Assembly: GCA_014169315.1 (NCBI GenBank)
Contig: AP022133.1
Location: 1,302,001-1,366,000 of the forward strand
Reading direction: 5' to 3'
Length of the DNA: 64,000 bases
DNA from: Enterobacter cloacae
GTDB lineage: Bacteria; Pseudomonadota; Gammaproteobacteria; Enterobacterales; Enterobacteriaceae
A model generated the notes under the pieces. That model was given only the letters and a program-made list of their open reading frames with translations. It ran no database searches and was not told the origin of the DNA. This document shows positions 1,652-25,464 of this stretch, piece after piece (positions within the stretch are counted from its first letter, which is position 1; each line of letters starts with the position of its first letter). The position numbers were made by a program, and so were the translations under genes.

Positions 1652-2503
1652 TTGATTTATATGTAAATAATAACCGTAACTATAACCGTATTGTATACGT
1701 CGAAAATACGGTTATTATGAGTAAAATACGGTTGATGCCACAACATATAGTAGTTAAATCAATGGTTTACATACCACATATTGATTCCCGTAACTTAATA
1801 TAATATACACTTTAAAGTAAATGACTTACTTGTCTATTCAGTATCATAGAGCCTAACTCGCTTTGCTCGTTAGTCTCTGTAAAACCAAAAAGATAAGATC
1901 GTAAACTTGCGTTTTCTCGCTAGTCACTCGAAGAACGCCACGTCTTTTGTTTTTGTCTATCGACTACTGAAGGAAGTGAAAACCTATACTGTTTGGGGTC
2001 AGCCGTCTTTTGGAGTAACTACGCGGGCTTTGCCCTTGTCGGGTTATCGGGCTGTTTAAGCCATTACTATTAATTAATCTACTACTGGTACAGTACTACC
2101 AGAACTATGGACTTATCAGATGATGAGGCAGTATACTTCCAACAATCATTAGTTAACTAAGAGTTAGGTACAATAATCCGAGTAATTAATATCTTATCTG
2201 ATCATCTAAAGGTAGAATCACCAGATAATCCCATATAACCTTTATGGTCTATTTGTGACTTTATTAGCACCGATTAACATTAAGAAATCATTAGGAAAGA
2301 TGATACTTACGTAAATGATTGAAATAAAATATTAAACCCTCTGAAAACCGGATATTGGAGACAAGTACACAATTTACATTCAAAACCTTGAAAACATGTA
2401 GATAACAGGTATGTTTATAGGTATAGCTCGCTAACTAATAAAATTTATTAACTTATTCTCATTTAGATTACTTACAATACTTCAAGACGGGGAAGTGATT
2501 GAT
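1652..2503. other. Long non-coding phage region with several inverted repeats
   Basis: About 850 bp without a convincing gene on either strand. It holds the ATAACCGTATT inverted repeat and flanking half copies (1669-1733). An imperfect GCGTT...AACGC stem lies at about 1913-1940, and a GC-richer patch at about 2028-2075 contains ggGCTTTGCCC-like hairpins. A CTGGTA...TACCAG repeat at 2085-2102 spans an AGTACT. The 3' end carries the ribosome-binding site of the first EAL gene. The content suggests a control region (operators, an untranslated RNA, or an origin), but I cannot assign one. Confidence 0.5.
1669..1733. repeat. ATAACCGTA / TACGGTTAT inverted and direct repeats
   Basis: Perfect 11-bp arms ATAACCGTATT (1682-1692) and AATACGGTTAT (1705-1715) are separated by 12 bp. 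A direct partial copy lies before them (ataaccgtaa near 1670-1679) and another inverted one after (aatacggtt, 1725-1733). There is no T-run behind the stem, so an intrinsic terminator is unlikely. Clustered copies in both orientations resemble binding sites for a dimeric regulator or small iterons. This is inference from the pattern only. Confidence 0.6.
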
Positions 2504-3190
2504 ATGAAGCAGTTTTTCATAGTGGAGCCATTAGTAGACCCAGTTTCAATGAGGTTAAGAGGGGTTGAAATATTAACTCGCTTCCAAGATCAGTATGGTA
2601 AGTTTTACCCGCCGGATACTGTCATTCAGAGCATGAGCAATGAAGAAAGATGTTTGTTACTCAGAGAGCAAGTCACTGCTATCAAAGAAAAAAATGATTT
2701 CTTCACAAAGAACAATCTGTTGTGTAGTCTTAATGTTAACAGGGATATGATTGAATGTATCAATCGCACACCTGAAGAAGATTGCCTATTAAAGGGTATG
2801 AATTATGTGCGGCTTGAAATTTCAGAGAGTCTAGCAACATGTGAACTACACACCCGTACTAAACTAATAGAAGCACTATGTACTAGATTTGGTAAGGTAT
2901 GGCTGGATGATTTGGGAGCAGGATATTGTGATATAAGCATGGTTGATGCTTCTCAGTATGAATTGATTAAGATTGATCGTGAATACTTCTGGCGGGAAGC
3001 CAAGAAAGAACAGCCATTCAAAGGTTTGATACTCTATAAAAATAAATGTAATAAAATCGTCTTTGAGGGCGTAGAGACAGATGAACAACTTGAACTAGCT
3101 AGACGTTTAGAGGTATGGGGTGTACAAGGTTACTTGTTTAACTCTTGTAAATTAATCGATATTGAAAGTCTGGCACTTCGCTATGACTAA
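2504..3190 (+). CDS. Stand-alone EAL-domain protein 1 (putative c-di-GMP phosphodiesterase)
   Basis: The 228-residue protein is almost entirely an EAL domain, without sensor, GGDEF or membrane parts. The signature E-x-L is EIL (E22). The residues that bind metal, substrate and water in active EAL enzymes all appear present: N77 (SLNVN), E105 (LEISE), D135-D136 (LDDLGAG), K156 (IKID), E188/E191 (FEGVE) and Q208 (QGY). Hydrolysis of c-di-GMP to pGpG is therefore plausible, though not shown. I chose ATG 2504 because GGGGAAG (2489-2495) lies 8 bp before it; a GTG at 2495 overlaps that site. It is followed by a small gene and an unrecognised 199-residue gene. A second EAL gene at 5765 has a similar layout. 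Lowering host c-di-GMP would affect motility and biofilm; that role is inferred. Confidence 0.85.
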   Translation: MKQFFIVEPLVDPVSMRLRGVEILTRFQDQYGKFYPPDTVIQSMSNEERCLLLREQVTAIKEKNDFFTKNNLLCSLNVNRDMIECINRTPEEDCLLKGMNYVRLEISESLATCELHTRTKLIEALCTRFGKVWLDDLGAGYCDISMVDASQYELIKIDREYFWREAKKEQPFKGLILYKNKCNKIVFEGVETDEQLELARRLEVWGVQGYLFNSCKLIDIESLALRYD

Positions 3191-3233
3191 TATATGACTA
3201 TATAAGGCTGACAAATTAATATCTAGAATCGTT

Positions 3234-3419
3234 ATGTGCTATAAAATTCTGCCCCTTGATAATGGTATATATGAGATATATCGCTTGAGTGAAAGCAGCG
3301 ATGATTCTTTTACTCAGTTAGCCCGGACTATCCTTAGTTCACATGAGGTTTTACTAACGAATCCACAGGTGTATCCCGACATTTCATATATAGACTATAT
3401 TATGTTCTACGTACCCTAG
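3234..3419 (+). CDS. Small hypothetical phage protein
   Basis: A 61-residue acidic protein with no recognised domain, signal or membrane segment. It lies 43 bp after the first EAL gene and 13 bp before the next gene on the same strand, so all three are probably co-transcribed. No good ribosome-binding site is visible before ATG 3234, so translation may depend on coupling. It could also be spurious. Confidence 0.45.
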   Translation: MCYKILPLDNGIYEIYRLSESSDDSFTQLARTILSSHEVLLTNPQVYPDISYIDYIMFYVP

Positions 3420-3432
3420 TTAAGGAAGAAAA

Positions 3433-4032
3433 ATGAATTATAATAAATGTGACTATTCTGCTATAGAATTAGTGGATGGTGTAATCTTTCGCATGAAAGA
3501 TGATATTACTGGTTTTTATAAGTTAGTTGATAATGAAAAATATTACTATTATCATTTTGAGGATGGCGTCTATACACGTACTGATGGTTTAGTAACAATA
3601 GATAAGGGTGATCTTTTTTCTAATCTACTTGAGCTGAGAGCGGAGAGTTTCATTCATATCACAGACCAAAATATAGAAATGCCTCAGAGTGAATTCCGTA
3701 GTGCTTTTTTATATTTCGATAGTTTACGAGTCAGCATTGAAAGCATTGATGGAAACATGTCAATAAAATCATTTGATTATAAAACTGATACTGAAATTCA
3801 AACTTATAATGATGTACTACAGTTCTATAATCACATCATTGATAATAAATGTGCGTATTATGGAAGACCCGACTTTGACAATGATATTCTTATCAATTCA
3901 TTACGCAATATTGGCGTTCCAATCGACCAGGTTAAGGAACATCTTACAAGATTTGATATGTTTTGTAGAATGATTATTCCTGAATATCAGTATCCAATCT
4001 CACCAACAGAGATAAAACAGCGTAGCTATTAA
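3433..4032 (+). CDS. Unrecognised protein downstream of EAL gene 1
   Basis: A 199-residue acidic, Tyr- and Asp-rich soluble protein beginning 5 bp after the purine-rich AAGGAAGAAAA site. No family recognised. Its C-terminal region (residues ~120-165, including RPDFDNDILINSLR) looks distantly like the C-terminus of the 125-residue protein that follows the second EAL gene (RPIDNYRIALLINQFR). That makes an EAL-plus-partner module possible. The similarity was seen by eye and needs an alignment. A strong terminator follows directly, so this gene closes the first EAL transcription unit. Confidence 0.7.
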   Translation: MNYNKCDYSAIELVDGVIFRMKDDITGFYKLVDNEKYYYYHFEDGVYTRTDGLVTIDKGDLFSNLLELRAESFIHITDQNIEMPQSEFRSAFLYFDSLRVSIESIDGNMSIKSFDYKTDTEIQTYNDVLQFYNHIIDNKCAYYGRPDFDNDILINSLRNIGVPIDQVKEHLTRFDMFCRMIIPEYQYPISPTEIKQRSY

Positions 4033-4037
4033 TTTTC

Positions 4038-4075
4038 TCAATGCCTTTACTACTTGGTAAGGGCATTGAGCTTTT
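4038..4075 (+). terminator. Rho-independent terminator
   Basis: Stem arms TCAATGCCTTTA (4038-4049) and TAAGGGCATTGA (4058-4069) are followed by CTTTT, six bases after the stop of the preceding gene. It closes the first EAL cluster. Confidence 0.8.
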
Positions 4076-4198
4076 GGATTAACTTTAAAAAAACTTATCG
4101 ATAATCTTATATGGCTTTACTTCTATATCATACCTAAAGTACACTCATAACCTCACGCCCCCCACTATGGGTAGGTTTGTTGAAGGTGTGGGTGTGGC

Positions 4199-4645
4199 GT
4201 GAAGCTACCATACAACAGCCCTCAGTACTGTTACTCCCCCTTCAGTTTACATGTAAGTAAAGAAATTCTACATAAGGCCGATACTACCCATTGTGACTTA
4301 GAGGATGTTGAAACAACCTCTTGTATTCCAGATAGTTCACAAGGGTTACTAATGGGGAAAATTATTGTAGTTTTATTGGTGCTCATCGCTTTGTATTTCA
4401 AAATCTCAGGTGGAGATGTTAAGCATGAAGCACAGCACGAAGAACCGTCTACCCAGCTCACCAATCAAGAGTTACAGGACGCTAAGGATTTCGCTCAGGC
4501 TCTTATCCAGCGTGATTACACATGCGATAAAGTCACTAGGTTTAGCAATGCGAACTTCTCAGGCCGTATAGATGTATGGTGTGATGATCAATACCAGTAT
4601 GAGATTACAAAGCCTGGTGGACGCTGGCAGGTAGTAGCGAAGTAA
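4199..4645 (+). CDS. Small membrane-anchored hypothetical protein
   Basis: Reading from a GTG at 4199 gives 148 residues. The more likely start is ATG 4352, preceded by AAGGG, giving 97 residues. That form begins MGKIIVVLLVLIALYFKISG, a single hydrophobic segment that could anchor it or act as an uncleaved signal. The rest is a ~75-residue polar domain with two Cys (TCDKV and WCDDQ) that could pair outside the cytoplasm, ending in KPGGRWQVV. Family unknown. It sits alone between two terminators, as phage lysogenic-conversion (moron) genes often do, but no function is shown. Confidence 0.55.
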   Translation: MKLPYNSPQYCYSPFSLHVSKEILHKADTTHCDLEDVETTSCIPDSSQGLLMGKIIVVLLVLIALYFKISGGDVKHEAQHEEPSTQLTNQELQDAKDFAQALIQRDYTCDKVTRFSNANFSGRIDVWCDDQYQYEITKPGGRWQVVAK

Positions 4646-4663
4646 TCTGAAAATTTCAGTACT

Positions 4664-4697
4664 AAGCCCTTTATGATGTGAATCTACAGGGCTTTTT
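4664..4697 (+). terminator. Rho-independent terminator
   Basis: AAGCCCT (4664-4670) pairs with AGGGCTT (4688-4694), followed by TTTT. It lies 19 bp after the small membrane protein gene. Confidence 0.85.
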
Positions 4698-4751
4698 CAA
4701 TTTGTAAATGATATTATCATTCAGAACTTGCCTATAGTGAAGAGTGGTAAA

Positions 4752-5192
4752 ATGAAAATTACTGTTGAAAATATCTCTGAGATGTTCGAGGGAACGAAAG
4801 AACTATTGATTGGTGGGCTGATCACGGCTGTCACTGGTTTGATTATTATAATTGGTCCAAATGGCAACGAATATGTAAAAGTGCCTTTGATGTTTGTTGC
4901 GATATTTCTAATTACTATAATACCTGGTTTTATCGCGATGCTTTTCTCACCATTAACAAAACTGACAGCAAAGATTTTTGATATTAAAAGTAGCAATATA
5001 CTTTGCCGCCTGTTTTCATTTTTGTATTTCCTACTGTATTGGTTTGTAACGCTTTCAGTGTTCAACTTTATAATTAGAAATGTATTAAATGTACACCCAA
5101 TAGAAGATGGTATGAAAATATGCTTTGCTATTGGGTGCTTTATTGTCGCAGTAGTACAAACAAGAAGATTTTACACAATACTTATTAAGTAA
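4752..5192 (+). CDS. Hypothetical four-helix membrane protein
   Basis: A 146-residue protein with about four hydrophobic segments: LLIGGLITAVTGLIIIIG; VPLMFVAIFLITIIPGFIAM; LYFLLYWFVTLSVFNFII; and ICFAIGCFIVAVVQ. I prefer ATG 4752 to the upstream TTG at 4728 because GAAGAGTGG lies at suitable spacing. No known family recognised. It stands alone between two terminators in the accessory region. Phage membrane proteins at such places often act in superinfection exclusion or lysogenic conversion, but that is only a possibility here. Confidence 0.7.
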   Translation: MKITVENISEMFEGTKELLIGGLITAVTGLIIIIGPNGNEYVKVPLMFVAIFLITIIPGFIAMLFSPLTKLTAKIFDIKSSNILCRLFSFLYFLLYWFVTLSVFNFIIRNVLNVHPIEDGMKICFAIGCFIVAVVQTRRFYTILIK

Positions 5193-5198
5193 TTGAAT

Positions 5199-5259
5199 AT
5201 GCCCCAATAACATGAACTGTCCTACTCAATGGGGCCGTCAATGTGTAGGGGCATTTTTT
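5199..5259. terminator. Stem-loop terminator between convergent genes
   Basis: ATGCCCC (5199-5205) pairs with GGGGCAT (5248-5254), followed by TTTTT on the plus strand. It sits between the membrane-protein gene and the convergent minus-strand gene ending at 5258. Confidence 0.6.
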
Positions 5260-5446
5260 AGAATGGCAGTTCTTCTTGCCCACAGGACCAATCATCAGCA
5301 TGTTGTTCAACCACTCGGCGTTCAGCATGTAGATAAACTAGAGCATCCAACACCTTGTTAAAGGGTGTCTCGCTAATCAGTACAAAACAATCCCTTTCAA
5401 CCGTTCTCAGCCAGAACACCCCACCTACAGAACCTTCAAATATCAC
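5258..5446 (-). CDS. Small hypothetical protein, coupled second gene
   Basis: A 62-residue protein reading from GTG 5446; family not recognised. The start overlaps the stop of the upstream 42-codon frame as GTGA (5443-5446), a typical translational-coupling arrangement. The frame is open upstream to a TGA about eight codons before the GTG, so no longer start is possible beyond that. It runs against the neighbouring genes and ends in the stem-loop at 5199-5259. Confidence 0.5.
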   Translation of the reverse strand: MIFEGSVGGVFWLRTVERDCFVLISETPFNKVLDALVYLHAERRVVEQHADDWSCGQEELPF

Positions 5447-5571
5447 CCGATCACCAACTCGAATTGTTCAAGAATACTTCCCCGATAACAGACCGTGAAC
5501 CAAACCCCAGCGTGTGAGAACTGATGAACACCTCTACGTATGGATGGATCGTAACCGTTCTTATTGCCCAT
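5443..5571 (-). CDS. Small 42-residue hypothetical protein, first gene of coupled pair
   Basis: The frame runs from ATG 5571 (MGNKNGYDPSIRRG...) to TGA at 5445-5443, with AGGGCTTAGAA upstream as a possible weak ribosome-binding site. It overlaps the next gene by 4 bp. The sequence looks protein-like (aromatic residues in AGVWFTVCYRG), and the exact overlap favours a real two-gene unit. At this length a chance frame cannot be excluded. The gene is too short for most gene callers. Confidence 0.4.
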   Translation of the reverse strand: MGNKNGYDPSIRRGVHQFSHAGVWFTVCYRGSILEQFELVIG

Positions 5572-5764
5572 TTCTAAGCCCTCCACTAACCGTTAGATAC
5601 TGTAAATTTATACAGTGTAATACTGAAGAACAAGACGAAACGCTAAAAATTCAATAAAAACGATCATATTCAATAAGTTAAATGATTTTCTTTAGGCGAA
5701 TAGTTTCTATACTAATAGATTTGAGCGATCAATAATAGAGTATAAATCGATTAAAGAGATCAAT

Positions 5765-6463
5765 GTGATGATAATAACTAGCTTTATAGCAGAGCCGATC
5801 ATGACAACTTCAGGCCAACTGGTTGGTTGTGAATTGTTAACCCGTTTCCATTGCCAGGACTTGCCTGTACTGAACAGTAAGTACTTCATCATGGCTATGG
5901 ATAATGAAAGGAAGAGGGAACTACTCACACGACAACTACAGGCCATAGAATTACGTGCTTCATGGTTCAGGGATCACCGGCTTTTCTGTACCGTTAATGT
6001 TGATACCTTACAGGCACGGCTATGTGTATATGACAGTGGTATAACTCACTTACTGGATAAGCTGGAGTTTGTCAGGTTGGAGATCTCAGAAGACTTTGAA
6101 GGGTTGGAATTGGGTATAGATCATCCGGTGTTACGAACAATGTTAAACGTAGGCTATCGCTTGTTCCTTGATGATCTTGGTTCCGGTCGGGCTAACGTTG
6201 CGGCGTTAACTACTGGATGCTATGAAGCGGTAAAAATCGATAGGGCGTTCTACCGTGAGGAAGTACAGAAACCAACATTCAACGTACTGATGAAGAACAT
6301 CATGAACTATTGCCCCTATGTAATCGTAGAGGGAGTAGAGCAGCGGCAAGAGCTACCAGTACTACGCGATGCTGGAGTAACTGCGGTTCAAGGCTATCTA
6401 TACCGTTCAGTACCGTTCGACAAGATAACAACCTTATCTAACACCATAGTAAATACCCTATAG
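5765..6463 (+). CDS. Stand-alone EAL-domain protein 2 (putative c-di-GMP phosphodiesterase)
   Basis: 232 residues, again only an EAL domain. The active-site set appears complete: E23 (CELLTRF), N78 (TVNVD), E106 (LEISE), D136-D137 (LDDLGSG), K157 (VKID), E189/E192 (VEGVE) and Q209 (QGY). It is clearly homologous to the EAL protein at 2504 along its whole length but strongly diverged, so it is an old duplication or a separate acquisition. The start is GTG 5765 or ATG 5768; GAGA at 5753-5756 suits either. The gene is followed 22 bp later by an unrecognised 125-residue gene and then a terminator, repeating the layout of the first EAL cluster. Confidence 0.85.
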   Translation: MMIITSFIAEPIMTTSGQLVGCELLTRFHCQDLPVLNSKYFIMAMDNERKRELLTRQLQAIELRASWFRDHRLFCTVNVDTLQARLCVYDSGITHLLDKLEFVRLEISEDFEGLELGIDHPVLRTMLNVGYRLFLDDLGSGRANVAALTTGCYEAVKIDRAFYREEVQKPTFNVLMKNIMNYCPYVIVEGVEQRQELPVLRDAGVTAVQGYLYRSVPFDKITTLSNTIVNTL

Positions 6464-6485
6464 ACAATAACTATGGGGTATACCT

Positions 6486-6863
6486 ATGAACATCACATTA
6501 CACTTCCCTCAAGGCTCTACAAGCATCATAGACGGTACTTATACAGGTTATGAGTATTCCCGTTCAGATAAGCTAATTAACGCTCATATCACGTTTGATG
6601 AATCATACAAGCTATTCATCAACCAACACCGTTTAGTACTCAGCTATAAATACATCACAGTGAATCACCAACACAGCTACACAATCGGTAGATGGGTTTA
6701 TGACTGGAACACAATAGAAAATTACAAAGGCTCAGAGCGTGTACACCTCGACTATCTCCAGTGCTTGACTCAGGAATTAATACAAGATGAATCACTGAAC
6801 AGTAGACCTATAGATAACTATCGAATTGCTCTATTGATCAATCAATTCAGAGAACAAAAATAA
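6486..6863 (+). CDS. Unrecognised protein downstream of EAL gene 2
   Basis: A 125-residue soluble protein rich in Tyr, His and Ile, with an apparently beta-rich N-terminal half and a helical C-terminus. No family recognised. The end (DYLQCLTQELIQ... RPIDNYRIALLINQFR) resembles the C-terminal part of the 199-residue protein after EAL gene 1, by eye only. Same strand as the EAL gene, 22 bp gap, one shared terminator: almost certainly one transcript. Confidence 0.7.
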   Translation: MNITLHFPQGSTSIIDGTYTGYEYSRSDKLINAHITFDESYKLFINQHRLVLSYKYITVNHQHSYTIGRWVYDWNTIENYKGSERVHLDYLQCLTQELIQDESLNSRPIDNYRIALLINQFREQK

Positions 6864-6874
6864 CTCGACAATAT

Positions 6875-6903
6875 GAGAACCTTTTTCATATAGGTTCTCT
6901 TTG
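6875..6903 (+). terminator. Rho-independent terminator
   Basis: GAGAACCT (6875-6882) pairs with AGGTTCTC (6892-6899), then TTTG. It separates the second EAL unit from the packaging genes. Confidence 0.8.
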
Positions 6904-9351
<2,448 letters not shown>

Positions 9352-9359
9352 AATGATAA

Positions 9360-11335
<1,976 letters not shown>

Positions 11336-11350
11336 ACAAGGAAGTTCTAG

Positions 11351-13177
<1,827 letters not shown>

Positions 13178-18335: not shown

Positions 18336-19380
18336 ATAAATCGAACTTTTGCTGAGTTGAAGGATCAGATCACGTATCCTCCCGACAACACAGACCATTC
18401 CGTGGCAAAGCAAAAGTTCAGAATCACCAACTGGTCCACCTACAACAAAGCTCTCATCAACCGTGGCTCCCTCACTTTCTGGCTGGATGATGAGGCGATT
18501 CAGGCCTGGTATGAGTCGGCAACGCCTTCATCACGAGGAAGGCCCCAGCGCTATTCTGATCTCGCCATCACCACCGTTCTGGTGATTAAACGCGTATTCC
18601 GGCTGACCCTGCGGGCTGCGCAGGGTTTTATTGATTCCATTTTTGCCCTGATGAACGTTCCGTTGCGCTGCCCGGATTACACCAGTGTCAGTAAGCGGGC
18701 AAAGTCGGTTAATGTCAGTTTCAAAACGTCCACCCGGGGTGAAATCGCACACCTGGTGATTGATTCCACCGGGCTGAAGGTCTTTGGTGAAGGCGAATGG
18801 AAAGTCAGAAAGCACGGCAAAGAGCGCCGTCGTATCTGGCGAAAGTTGCATCTTGCTGTTGACAGCAACACACATGAAGTTGTCTGTGCAGACCTGTCGC
18901 TGAATAACGTCACGGACTCAGAAGCCTTCCCGGGCCTTATCCGGCAGACTCACAGAAAAATCAGGGCAGCCGCGGCAGACGGGGCTTACGATACCCGGCT
19001 CTGTCACGATGAACTGCGCCGCAAAAAAATCAGCGCGCTTATTCCTCCCCGAAAAGGAGCAGGTTACTGGCCCGGTGAGTACGCAGACCGCAACCGTGCC
19101 GTTGCTAATCAGCGGCTGAGCGGAAGCAATGCACGGTGGAAATGGACAACGGAATATAACCGTCGCTCGATAGCGGAAACGGCAATGTACAGAATGAAGC
19201 AGTTGTTGGGAGATTCACTGACGCTGCGTGACTACGATGGTCAGGTAGCGGAAGCTATGGCCATGGTGCGTGCGTTGAACAGGATGACAAAGGCTGGGAT
19301 GCCAGAAAGCGTGCGTATTGCCTGAAAATCCAGCCAGCTACAGGGTCGTTCGCACGAAATCTTATTTATTCAACAAAGCC
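18325..19380 (+). mobile_element. IS903-group element (IS5 family), about 1056 bp
   Basis: The terminal inverted repeats are GGCTTTGTTGAATAAAT at 18,325 and its complement ending at 19,380, as in IS903. The length agrees with the ~1057-bp IS903 type, and the single transposase gene is intact. The expected 9-bp target duplication is absent: ggtcatcag precedes the left end and agtgctaac follows the right end. The two flanking phage genes are also not one gene. This points to an IS-driven adjacent deletion or recombination between two copies rather than simple insertion. Confidence 0.93.
18402..19325 (+). CDS. IS903-group transposase (IS5 family DDE)
   Basis: Starting at GTG 18,402 (VAKQKFRITNWSTYN) the protein has 307 residues, the IS903 transposase length. 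A longer in-frame start at 18,357 seems less likely. DDE-type features are HLVIDSTGLKVFGEGEW (first Asp), AAADGAYDTRLCHDEL (second Asp) and YNRRSIAETAMYRMKQLLG (YREK-like block with the catalytic Glu). The sequence is clearly diverged from classical IS903 but is of the same group. The frame is intact. Confidence 0.93.
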   Translation: MAKQKFRITNWSTYNKALINRGSLTFWLDDEAIQAWYESATPSSRGRPQRYSDLAITTVLVIKRVFRLTLRAAQGFIDSIFALMNVPLRCPDYTSVSKRAKSVNVSFKTSTRGEIAHLVIDSTGLKVFGEGEWKVRKHGKERRRIWRKLHLAVDSNTHEVVCADLSLNNVTDSEAFPGLIRQTHRKIRAAAADGAYDTRLCHDELRRKKISALIPPRKGAGYWPGEYADRNRAVANQRLSGSNARWKWTTEYNRRSIAETAMYRMKQLLGDSLTLRDYDGQVAEAMAMVRALNRMTKAGMPESVRIA

Positions 19381-24474: not shown

Positions 24475-25311
24475 TCACGCTGTAATTTTTTCTACTGAAA
24501 AGTACTGGTTTAATACATCAGCAATTCCAGTTTCTGTATTGTTACCTATTACTAAATCAGCACACGCTTTCACTTCATCAACAGCGTTACCCATAGCAAC
24601 ACCCAGGCCAGCAGTCTCCAGCATACTTAGATCGTTGAAATTATCACCAAAGGCCATAACCTGGCTCATAGATAAGCCTTGCGATTCTACCCATTGTGCC
24701 AGGCGTTTACCCTTACTGTTTCCGGCTTGTGCTATGTCTACTTGGTCGTGCCAAGACCATTCACAAGCAAGGCCAAGCTCACGCTCTACGATCTGACCAA
24801 AGCGATGTAGTTTTTCAGTATCAGAATCAGTAAGGGCGAATTTCCATATAGCATCAACATTTTGAGAGGCTTCACTCAGAGAGGGTACTTGTTTGAATAC
24901 TGGACGTTGTGACTCTGGAAGAGATTTAGCCCAATTTTCTGTACGGATAATATGCCCCGTTGGATTTTGATAAAACATGGCATCATCGGCATACATCAGA
25001 CTATGAACATTGTAACTATCAAGTAGGTTTACTAATTGAGTAGCTTGTTCTGGTTGTAATGGGTCTGAGGCAATAACTCTTTTTTCGGCGTAATCGTACA
25101 ATAAAGCACCGTTACAACATATAGCTGGTGTATTCAGTGCTAATGCCTGATAAAAAGGATGGATGGCTACAAAGTGCCGTCCGGTAACTATGACAACCTT
25201 TGCCCCTGATTTACGGGCATTCTGTAGGGCAGTTAATGAGGCTGGTAAAATAGTTTTTTCTGGCGTCAATAAAGTGCCGTCCAGATCAAGGGCGATTACC
25301 TGATAGTCCAT
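24475..25311 (-). CDS. Phage-borne YbhA-like HAD phosphatase (Cof family)
   Basis: 278 residues from ATG 25,311 with AGGTGA upstream. HAD motif I is ALDLDGTLL (nucleophile Asp9, acid Asp11). Motif II Thr is in VIVTGRH, motif III Lys in NSKGKRL and motif IV in FGDNFNDLSML. The C2-type cap has the WSWHDQVDI text of YbhA. E. coli YbhA dephosphorylates pyridoxal 5'-phosphate and some sugar phosphates, and this copy probably does the same. By eye, 51 of the first 71 residues equal the truncated host YbhA, so it is a diverged homologue and not a duplicate of the interrupted gene. It may replace the activity lost by integration. The 289-residue gene follows in the same transcript. Confidence 0.9.
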   Translation of the reverse strand: MDYQVIALDLDGTLLTPEKTILPASLTALQNARKSGAKVVIVTGRHFVAIHPFYQALALNTPAICCNGALLYDYAEKRVIASDPLQPEQATQLVNLLDSYNVHSLMYADDAMFYQNPTGHIIRTENWAKSLPESQRPVFKQVPSLSEASQNVDAIWKFALTDSDTEKLHRFGQIVERELGLACEWSWHDQVDIAQAGNSKGKRLAQWVESQGLSMSQVMAFGDNFNDLSMLETAGLGVAMGNAVDEVKACADLVIGNNTETGIADVLNQYFSVEKITA

Positions 25312-25464
25312 GTAGTGATTCACCTGATTTTGGTATGTAGTTTTTCCGATAGTACACCGCTTTGCGGCTACGACGAAACAAGGTGAAGAGAGTCTTGTTG
25401 AGCACTGGAACAACGTTGGATACTGGCGTATTGCCCTGGATTGGTGAAAATGTTGTAATAAGCG

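Follow-up and report, generated by a model that had tools for sequence, protein, structure and literature searches.

What do two genes for stand-alone EAL domains, of the cyclic diguanylate (c-di-GMP) phosphodiesterase type, do for a temperate phage or for its host? The question is raised by the window, a stretch of 64,000 nucleotides of Enterobacter cloacae DNA (1302001-1366000 of contig AP022133.1) that starts within a prophage carrying two such genes, here called EALa and EALb. That both lie in one prophage, as the initial annotation had proposed, was borne out by terminase, portal, capsid, tail tip and lysozyme genes at about 7-21 kb of the window, together with a serine recombinase gene. 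We consider it an evenly balanced proposition that EALa and EALb are accessory lysogenic-conversion genes encoding active c-di-GMP phosphodiesterases in a cargo and defence zone, while shortened ("stripped") homologues in sister phages would point to an added protein-binding role. The domain and its subclass are known; what is new is the placement of the genes, the stripped forms and the relation to STM1697, an anti-FlhDC EAL-like protein of Salmonella. Enterobacterial stand-alone EAL proteins are regulators of motility and biofilm, some of them enzymatic and some pure binders. An enterobacterial subclass with the same architecture as EALa and EALb is described in PMC10333796, along with its horizontal transfer and members on plasmids that are inactive. 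The literature searched, which omits most subscription journals, yielded no paper on EAL proteins encoded by phages, and we do not claim that they are unreported; one study is said to have reported a prophage influencing motility and biofilm in Shewanella.

Both proteins are indeed pure EAL domains (228 and 231 amino acids), scoring 67.1 bits (EALa) and 73.6 bits (EALb) against PF00563, for which the Pfam gathering cut-off is 31.3. As the initial annotation had also stated, they are homologous over their full length yet strongly diverged, with 69 identities over 229 aligned residues (30%), and every catalytic position is kept: the 11 active-site positions are identical in the two proteins (11/11), the list of these positions (E, N, E, DD, K, E, E, Q, for metal and substrate binding) being that of the EAL literature. 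If 11 columns were drawn randomly from the aligned ones, the chance of such identity would be about 1e-6. All 24 full-length phage sequences (20 EALb-type and four EALa) keep 10 or 11 of the 11 positions, the change in those with 10 (L054, L055 and L056) being R to K in ExLxR, and the EAL gene of P1-like phages and the prophage genes L019 and L022 have 11/11 each. The ratio of nonsynonymous to synonymous substitution rates (dN/dS) has a median of 0.12 both for EALb (135/136 pairs) and for EALa (5/6 pairs), which amounts to purifying selection across divergent phages. With active sites that are complete and kept by purifying selection in both proteins, it is reasonable to suppose that the phage influences host c-di-GMP, and to this extent the earlier idea of a phage-encoded system for lowering or sensing host c-di-GMP is supported in part, although not as the repeated module in which it had been cast. 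A recent duplication as the origin of EALa and EALb was rejected, because both have orthologues of their own in other phages and the branch leading to EALa is long. Both proteins match PHROG_32988, a family without assigned function, at 5e-33 and 2.3e-35, respectively. A profile of the EAL family matched 443 proteins at E 1e-10, and the genera among the 120 listed matches are Enterobacter, Klebsiella, Cronobacter, Raoultella, Pantoea, Lelliottia and others.

The best NCBIfam model for both proteins is that of PdeH (YhjH), a host c-di-GMP phosphodiesterase (100.8 bits for EALa and 109 bits for EALb), which has the same active site and a similar loop. However, EALa and EALb stay under the cut-off of the PdeH equivalog NF008617 (190 bits), and PdeH falls in a separate clade. 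The host's own PdeH reached 441 bits with the NCBI phosphodiesterase equivalog, the PdeH orthologue call resting on L155.

The sister phages were sampled by their terminase protein and not by their EAL gene, which gave 48 viral-contig loci of the large terminase subunit gene (terL). Among these, 33 have at least 4.4 kb upstream of the small subunit gene (terS) and form the slot count, 15 were left out (less than 4.4 kb upstream of terS, or terS not found), and four of the 48 (L161, L163, L179 and L188) were read via an earlier-found locus on the same contig. The slot holds an intact EAL gene in nine loci, a shortened homologue lacking the active site in 10 and neither in 14; intact or stripped EAL genes thus occur in 19/33 sister loci, and two loci outside the slot count (L178 and L181) also carry a stripped form. 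Stripped forms were found at 12 loci; they are 129-210 amino acids long and keep 2-5 of the 11 active-site positions, those of L177 and L183 (129 and 135 amino acids) being fragmentary frames. They lack large pieces of the protein, which in the L169 group include the entire DD loop. PHROG_32988 was matched by 4/4 stripped forms scanned (3e-10 to 4e-5) and the PdeH NCBI model by 2/2 at 1e-5, while with Pfam three of the four scanned gave no match and one a sub-threshold EAL match (0.011). As judged from these profile matches, the homology of the stripped forms to the EAL family is real though weak. Their dN/dS has a median of 0.18 (range 0.12-0.32; nine forms, 25 of 36 pairs computable), and because of this they do not look like decaying genes.

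The conservation profile of the stripped forms, for which as for dN/dS nine of the 12 were used, is uneven. In EALb numbering, within-group identity is 0.54 at the N-terminus, 0.48-0.59 over residues 151-220 and 0.08-0.17 over residues 101-150, a contrast created in part by the deletions themselves, which were scored as differences. Residues 151-220 cover the counterpart of helices 6-8 of YdiV as well as core barrel elements, and in YdiV these helices grip FlhD, according to PMC3510510. This brings in another account, which we rate as possible but on the unlikely side: the phage EAL proteins would chiefly act like YdiV and STM1697 by binding a host regulator, with FlhDC as first candidate, and would lower flagellar expression, c-di-GMP turnover or binding serving as a switch that was lost in the stripped forms. 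The purifying selection on proteins with so few active-site positions left agrees with such a role, as does a best-kept stretch that includes the FlhD-holding region, although the latter is weakened by the deletion-made part of the contrast and by the barrel elements lying in the same stretch.

The same account draws on descent. We built a tree of 76 sequences, for which at least 80 genome loci were found, 45 requested and 44 entered, L096 (its EAL frame being in two pieces) yielding no row; six of the 12 stripped forms and four of the six members of the L019-L024 group are included. STM1697 is represented by L038, a Salmonella contig from a phage preparation that was named by its likeness by eye to the sequence of PDB 5hxg. 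One clade with support 97/96 unites EALa, EALb, their 60% relatives, the stripped forms, L019, L021, L022, L024, L074-L077 and STM1697; the stripped forms are a single clade within it (99/95), and the P1 gene falls just outside. When ten rows were removed, the four longest branches among them, the clade persisted (95/91, 96% of bootstrap trees), but the position of STM1697 inside it did not survive. An origin of the stripped forms in common with STM1697 was not rejected (approximately unbiased test, p 0.49). EALa and EALb descend with STM1697 from a line that the other EAL proteins of the tree, YdiV among them, do not share. L075 and L076 adjoin an integrase-like frame, but not every member of the clade is shown to be phage-borne, because no phage gene was recognised by eye among the listed neighbours of L074 and L077; apart from STM1697 the clade is mostly phage-borne.

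STM1697 (PDB 5hxg) is also the best PDB match of EALa and EALb (2e-25 and 7.5e-45) and resembles them in being a stand-alone EAL protein of similar length, but as L038 it keeps 7/11 active-site positions where EALa and EALb have 11/11. In a Salmonella record labelled plasmid, steC and sapF flank a copy that is identical at 232/235 residues, and no phage gene annotations are found around it. YdiV (STM1344), likewise a stand-alone EAL protein, is the second PDB match, and the host's YdiV-like protein (L154) has 4/11 positions and stands outside the phage clade. The degenerate active site of these anti-FlhDC factors is not seen in EALa and EALb, only in the stripped homologues. In a manual count, the FlhD contacts of YdiV (F155, F168, E179, F181 and A184) correspond to T, F, N, L and N in EALb, so that F168 is the only one of five to be kept. 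However, STM1697, an FlhD binder according to PMC10100727, likewise keeps only F168 of the five YdiV contacts given in PMC3510510, and the comparison therefore decides nothing. A point against regulator binding as the chief function is that an active site, which a pure binder would not need, has been kept in four separate lineages (EALa; EALb with its 60% relatives; the L019 type; the P1 type). A wider picture, which we put forward as doubtful, is that temperate phages of Enterobacterales keep a slot for an EAL-fold host regulator, a switchable form with intact site or an always-on stripped form, which would bind a host regulator; STM1697 would be a domesticated phage protein, and flagella or surface receptors of the lysogen would be turned down, excluding rival phages.

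The slot itself has other occupants. A prophage of E. coli MG48 has, ahead of terS, a gene for an OLD/GajA-like ATP-dependent nuclease (Pfam OLD-like TOPRIM 2.5e-16; PADLOC Old 4.7e-75), to which contigs L180 and L201 have a 100% match; with terL 96-97% identical, all three carry this likely defence nuclease in place of EAL. Further cargo of sister phages comprises a PDC-S31 candidate defence gene (L051) and a type-IV-restriction-like gene (L167). The region between recombinase and terS is thus a variable cargo zone, partly of defence genes. Prophages with such an EAL gene differ among themselves, the neighbours of the gene being an integrase and tail genes in L159, head and tape-measure genes in L158 and an integrase fragment in L160.

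A comparable arrangement was found in P1-like phages. The interval between mat and lxc, which in type P1 carries res and mod, is occupied by an EAL gene together with a divergent gene in three cases: P1 record OP279344 (whose title describes it as without res and mod), Ro157c2YLVW and plasmid pB1W1-p1. This EAL gene resembles EALa and EALb in being stand-alone, in its active site, in its phage cargo site and in matching PHROG_32988 (511 bits), but it has 29-31% identity to EALb and its neighbour is a divergent helix-turn-helix gene, not the p104 gene found next to EALb. The neighbour is annotated as helix-turn-helix in Ro157c2YLVW and pB1W1-p1, and as AraC-type in pB1W1-p1. The pairing of a P1-type EAL gene with a divergent regulator was observed in L210 (2769-3491), L212 and L209, the one in L210 being of AraC type and nearest to YdeO, and the regulator might control the EAL gene. 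In an E. albertii plasmid, EAL gene and regulator adjoin a type III restriction endonuclease gene. Relatives of the P1 gene at E 1e-30 were found in 236 of 72,556 plasmid records, the surroundings being inspected in two P1-like ones. Given the slot cargo and the mat-lxc arrangement, EAL genes lie beside or replace defence genes in two phage groups.

Such company invites the thought of counter-defence, that is, of enzymes removing the cyclic dinucleotide alarm signals used by host defence. The cargo position held in common with a defence-type nuclease of sister phages and the intact catalytic site are the two points that speak for it. EAL enzymes, however, are known mainly for acting on c-di-GMP, nothing in the sequence points to another cyclic dinucleotide, and the stripped forms have lost most catalytic residues, so that we consider this reading very improbable.

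If instead EALa and EALb are phosphodiesterases acting on c-di-GMP, they would be produced in the lysogen as active enzymes and would lower c-di-GMP globally or near one effector. The lower level would change the cell surface (cellulose, exopolysaccharide, fimbriae) and motility, and the likely benefit to the prophage would be a host that is a poorer target for other phages. The protein may also touch a host partner, and the stripped homologues suggest that some phages keep only that function. PMC8669472 describes a protection of E. coli against phage N4 by the host enzyme PdeL, which requires its catalytic activity; overproduction of PdeH gave no effective protection. Protection via lowered c-di-GMP is thus possible but enzyme-dependent, and because PdeH is the NCBI model that EALa and EALb most resemble, the exclusion benefit is a guess.

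The PdeH result is one of several points that weigh against active phosphodiesterases as the whole explanation. The textbook loop after DD is of the DFGTGYSS type, and the loop differs from it in both proteins, reading DDLGSGRANVAAL in EALb and DDLGAGYCDISMV in EALa; in favour of activity, it is comparable to the loop of host PdeH (DDFGTGMANFSAL), EALb's being the nearer of the two. A degenerate loop can abolish activity in about half of EAL domains, as stated in PMC10333796. According to PMC10100727, STM1697, which is the closest relative with a solved structure, shows neither binding nor hydrolysis of c-di-GMP. The host genome has 24 EAL matches, EALa and EALb included, and seven of the 10 proteins scanned (mostly cargo or window genes, p125 and p199 included) gave no PADLOC match. 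With 10/33 sister loci stripped and 14/33 free of EAL, hydrolysis is neither essential nor the entire selected function; a stripped form at the same slot and the kinship with STM1697 both argue against a purely enzymatic role.

The genes around EALa and EALb are listed in the table below. Each EAL gene had been described as followed on the same strand by an unrecognised gene and a terminator. The genes are there, with an additional one (p61) after EALa, and the hairpin behind p199 is strong, but the second, behind p125, is weak and imperfect; a consensus terminator scan recovered the former and not the latter, and its three terminator-like sites are no excess over the mean of 2.8 in shuffled sequences. 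The C-terminus of EALb is about eight residues longer in the lineage of the window than in most orthologues, and the stop codon is spanned by the hairpin at 6455-6479.

Features of the EAL region of the prophage (positions in the window unless a locus is named; ORF, open reading frame)
Feature	Position	Strand	Details
Serine recombinase	L073:13914-15761, about 2-4 kb left of the window		PHROG_95 integrase, 8.3e-67
EALa, single EAL domain, 228 amino acids	2504-3190	+	Likely ATG start at 2504; ORF 2495-3190 opens at GTG; Pfam EAL 2e-18
p61, small ORF of 61 amino acids between EALa and p199	3234-3419	+	Kept alongside them, 93-100% in L039/L042, L044 and L045
p199, unrecognised gene of 199 amino acids 3′ of EALa	3433-4032	+	
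Strong hairpin, probable terminator of the EALa unit	4037-4070	+	15 bp stem, -21.8 kcal/mol, z -5.9
p104, divergent gene of 104 amino acids upstream of EALb	5258-5571	-	Two halves in different frames here
EALb, single EAL domain, 231 amino acids	5768-6463	+	Likely ATG start at 5768; ORF 5765-6463 opens at GTG; Pfam EAL 2e-20
9-bp hairpin across the EALb stop codon	6455-6479	+	-11.7 kcal/mol, z -3.0
p125, gene of 125 amino acids 3′ of EALb	6486-6863	+	
Imperfect hairpins 3′ of p125, weak terminator candidate	6871-6908	+	-12.7 kcal/mol, z -4.2
terS, terminase small subunit, right-hand landmark of the slot	6987-7559	+	PHROG_57, 2.2e-25
terL, terminase large subunit, gpA type	7462-9351	+	Pfam 9.2e-51; PHROG_15 6.5e-122

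The C-termini of p199 and p125 had been thought to look alike, and the two EAL-plus-partner pairs to form a repeated module; neither claim was confirmed. The C-terminal match comprises only 4/7 residues (E 2.8), and no homology between p125 and p199 was detected by profile-profile comparison (hhalign probability 0.4%, E 0.17) or BLASTP (best E 0.64). Neither protein gave anything significant in Pfam, PHROGs or PADLOC, their AlphaFold models were too poor for use (mean predicted local distance difference test scores of 47 for p125 and 58 for p199), and a Foldseek search with p199 returned no match at E 0.001; p61 had no match in PHROGs and only a sub-threshold one in Pfam. The p199 gene is rare, with nine homologous protein clusters and occurrence in 2/99 genomes (its own and G013) and in 1/295 family genomes (its own). 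In the loci examined it always lies behind EALa (4/4 rows, in which p61 stands between, plus G013), a constancy that comes from few, related phages, the window and L042 being near-identical. In contrast, p125 stands behind EALb-type genes in 10/20 contigs, in nine as a full or, in one of them, shortened frame and in L043 interrupted by an insertion sequence (IS). In the 10 EALb contigs without it, the next gene is an antisense gene of 169-171 amino acids (four), an antisense gene of 269 amino acids (four) or another sense gene (one), and the remaining contig has no ORF of at least 60 amino acids before the large terminase frame. Distant p125 relatives occur in five contigs where an EAL gene was not found (L166, L167, L186, L199 and L202). 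Thus p125 is a frequent neighbour of EALb and not a fixed partner, and a repeated module is unsupported since the partners are unrelated and p125 is not constant.

The divergent p104 is the steadier neighbour: by profile search on reading frames it was found at 18/19 EAL loci vs 2/14 EAL-less loci, or 3/14 when a tblastn match in L194 is counted (Fisher p 3e-6 or 2e-5, respectively, which overstates the certainty, since the phages compared share ancestry and are no independent samples). At those 18 loci it stands 86-319 bases upstream of the EAL gene. When all loci are taken together, 19/20 EALb-type and 10/12 stripped genes have p104 upstream, one of the latter two misses starting at a contig end. 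In contigs bearing EALa the count uses the EALb gene, EALa itself being without p104. In the window, tblastn places residues 40-104 in frame -3 and residues 1-39 in frame -1, while an intact relative in L044 (4955-5269, - strand) matches PHROG_2100 at 9.6e-10. In sister phages p104 ends in acidic residues and LPF (e.g. CGQEELPF). An acidic C-terminal tip is a trait of single-strand binding proteins, which the end of p104 resembles by eye, and p104 could be a small DNA-metabolism or host-binding protein.

The prophage copy is damaged: besides the split p104, two insertion sequences interrupt it, an IS3-type element at about 240-1411 and a DDE transposase at 18357-19325. EALa and EALb might then be passengers or decaying genes without present function for host or phage. 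We find this improbable, given that their frames are intact with dN/dS of about 0.12 and that the genes recur among sister loci and in the wide set of profile-matching proteins. In the relative G013, terL is interrupted and an IS3-type element adjoins the capsid gene. Named protein homologues belong largely to Enterobacter species, and a related prophage with a terL 96% identical at the protein level lies inside ybhA of E. coli ESBLEC_MG48. Neither the EAL region nor positions 7000-12000 had a DNA match among named phages, and none of the E. coli genomes matched the EAL region at the sensitivities applied. The MG48 prophage interrupts ybhA, and just within its boundary lies a pyridoxal phosphatase gene of full length (L037:565-1404), as if it were a replacement copy of ybhA brought by the phage; at the far end of the prophage in the window there is likewise a full HAD-type phosphatase gene (24475-25413, - strand). 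Among the subset of prophage genes scanned or read between recombinase and terS, no repressor or replication gene was recognised. We also observed AGTACT 46 times in 22 kb of prophage (1500-23500) vs twice in 38 kb of host DNA; about seven occurrences are expected in the prophage from base composition, and 43.6 from a 5-mer Markov model, which accounts for the count.

The readings of EALa and EALb as phosphodiesterases and as regulator binders predict opposite changes in motility. With intact and stripped kinds at one prophage locus and STM1697 in the same clade, the family offers a natural series on EAL function after the loss of catalysis, and phages are suggested as a possible source of host motility regulators. 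Because stripped forms mostly escape the Pfam EAL model, phage genes that act on the c-di-GMP or flagella of the host may be more numerous than they seem. If a barrier to superinfection proved true, EAL genes would join the defence-type genes of the same cargo zone, and viruses may tune the surface and swimming behaviour of their hosts in more than one way.

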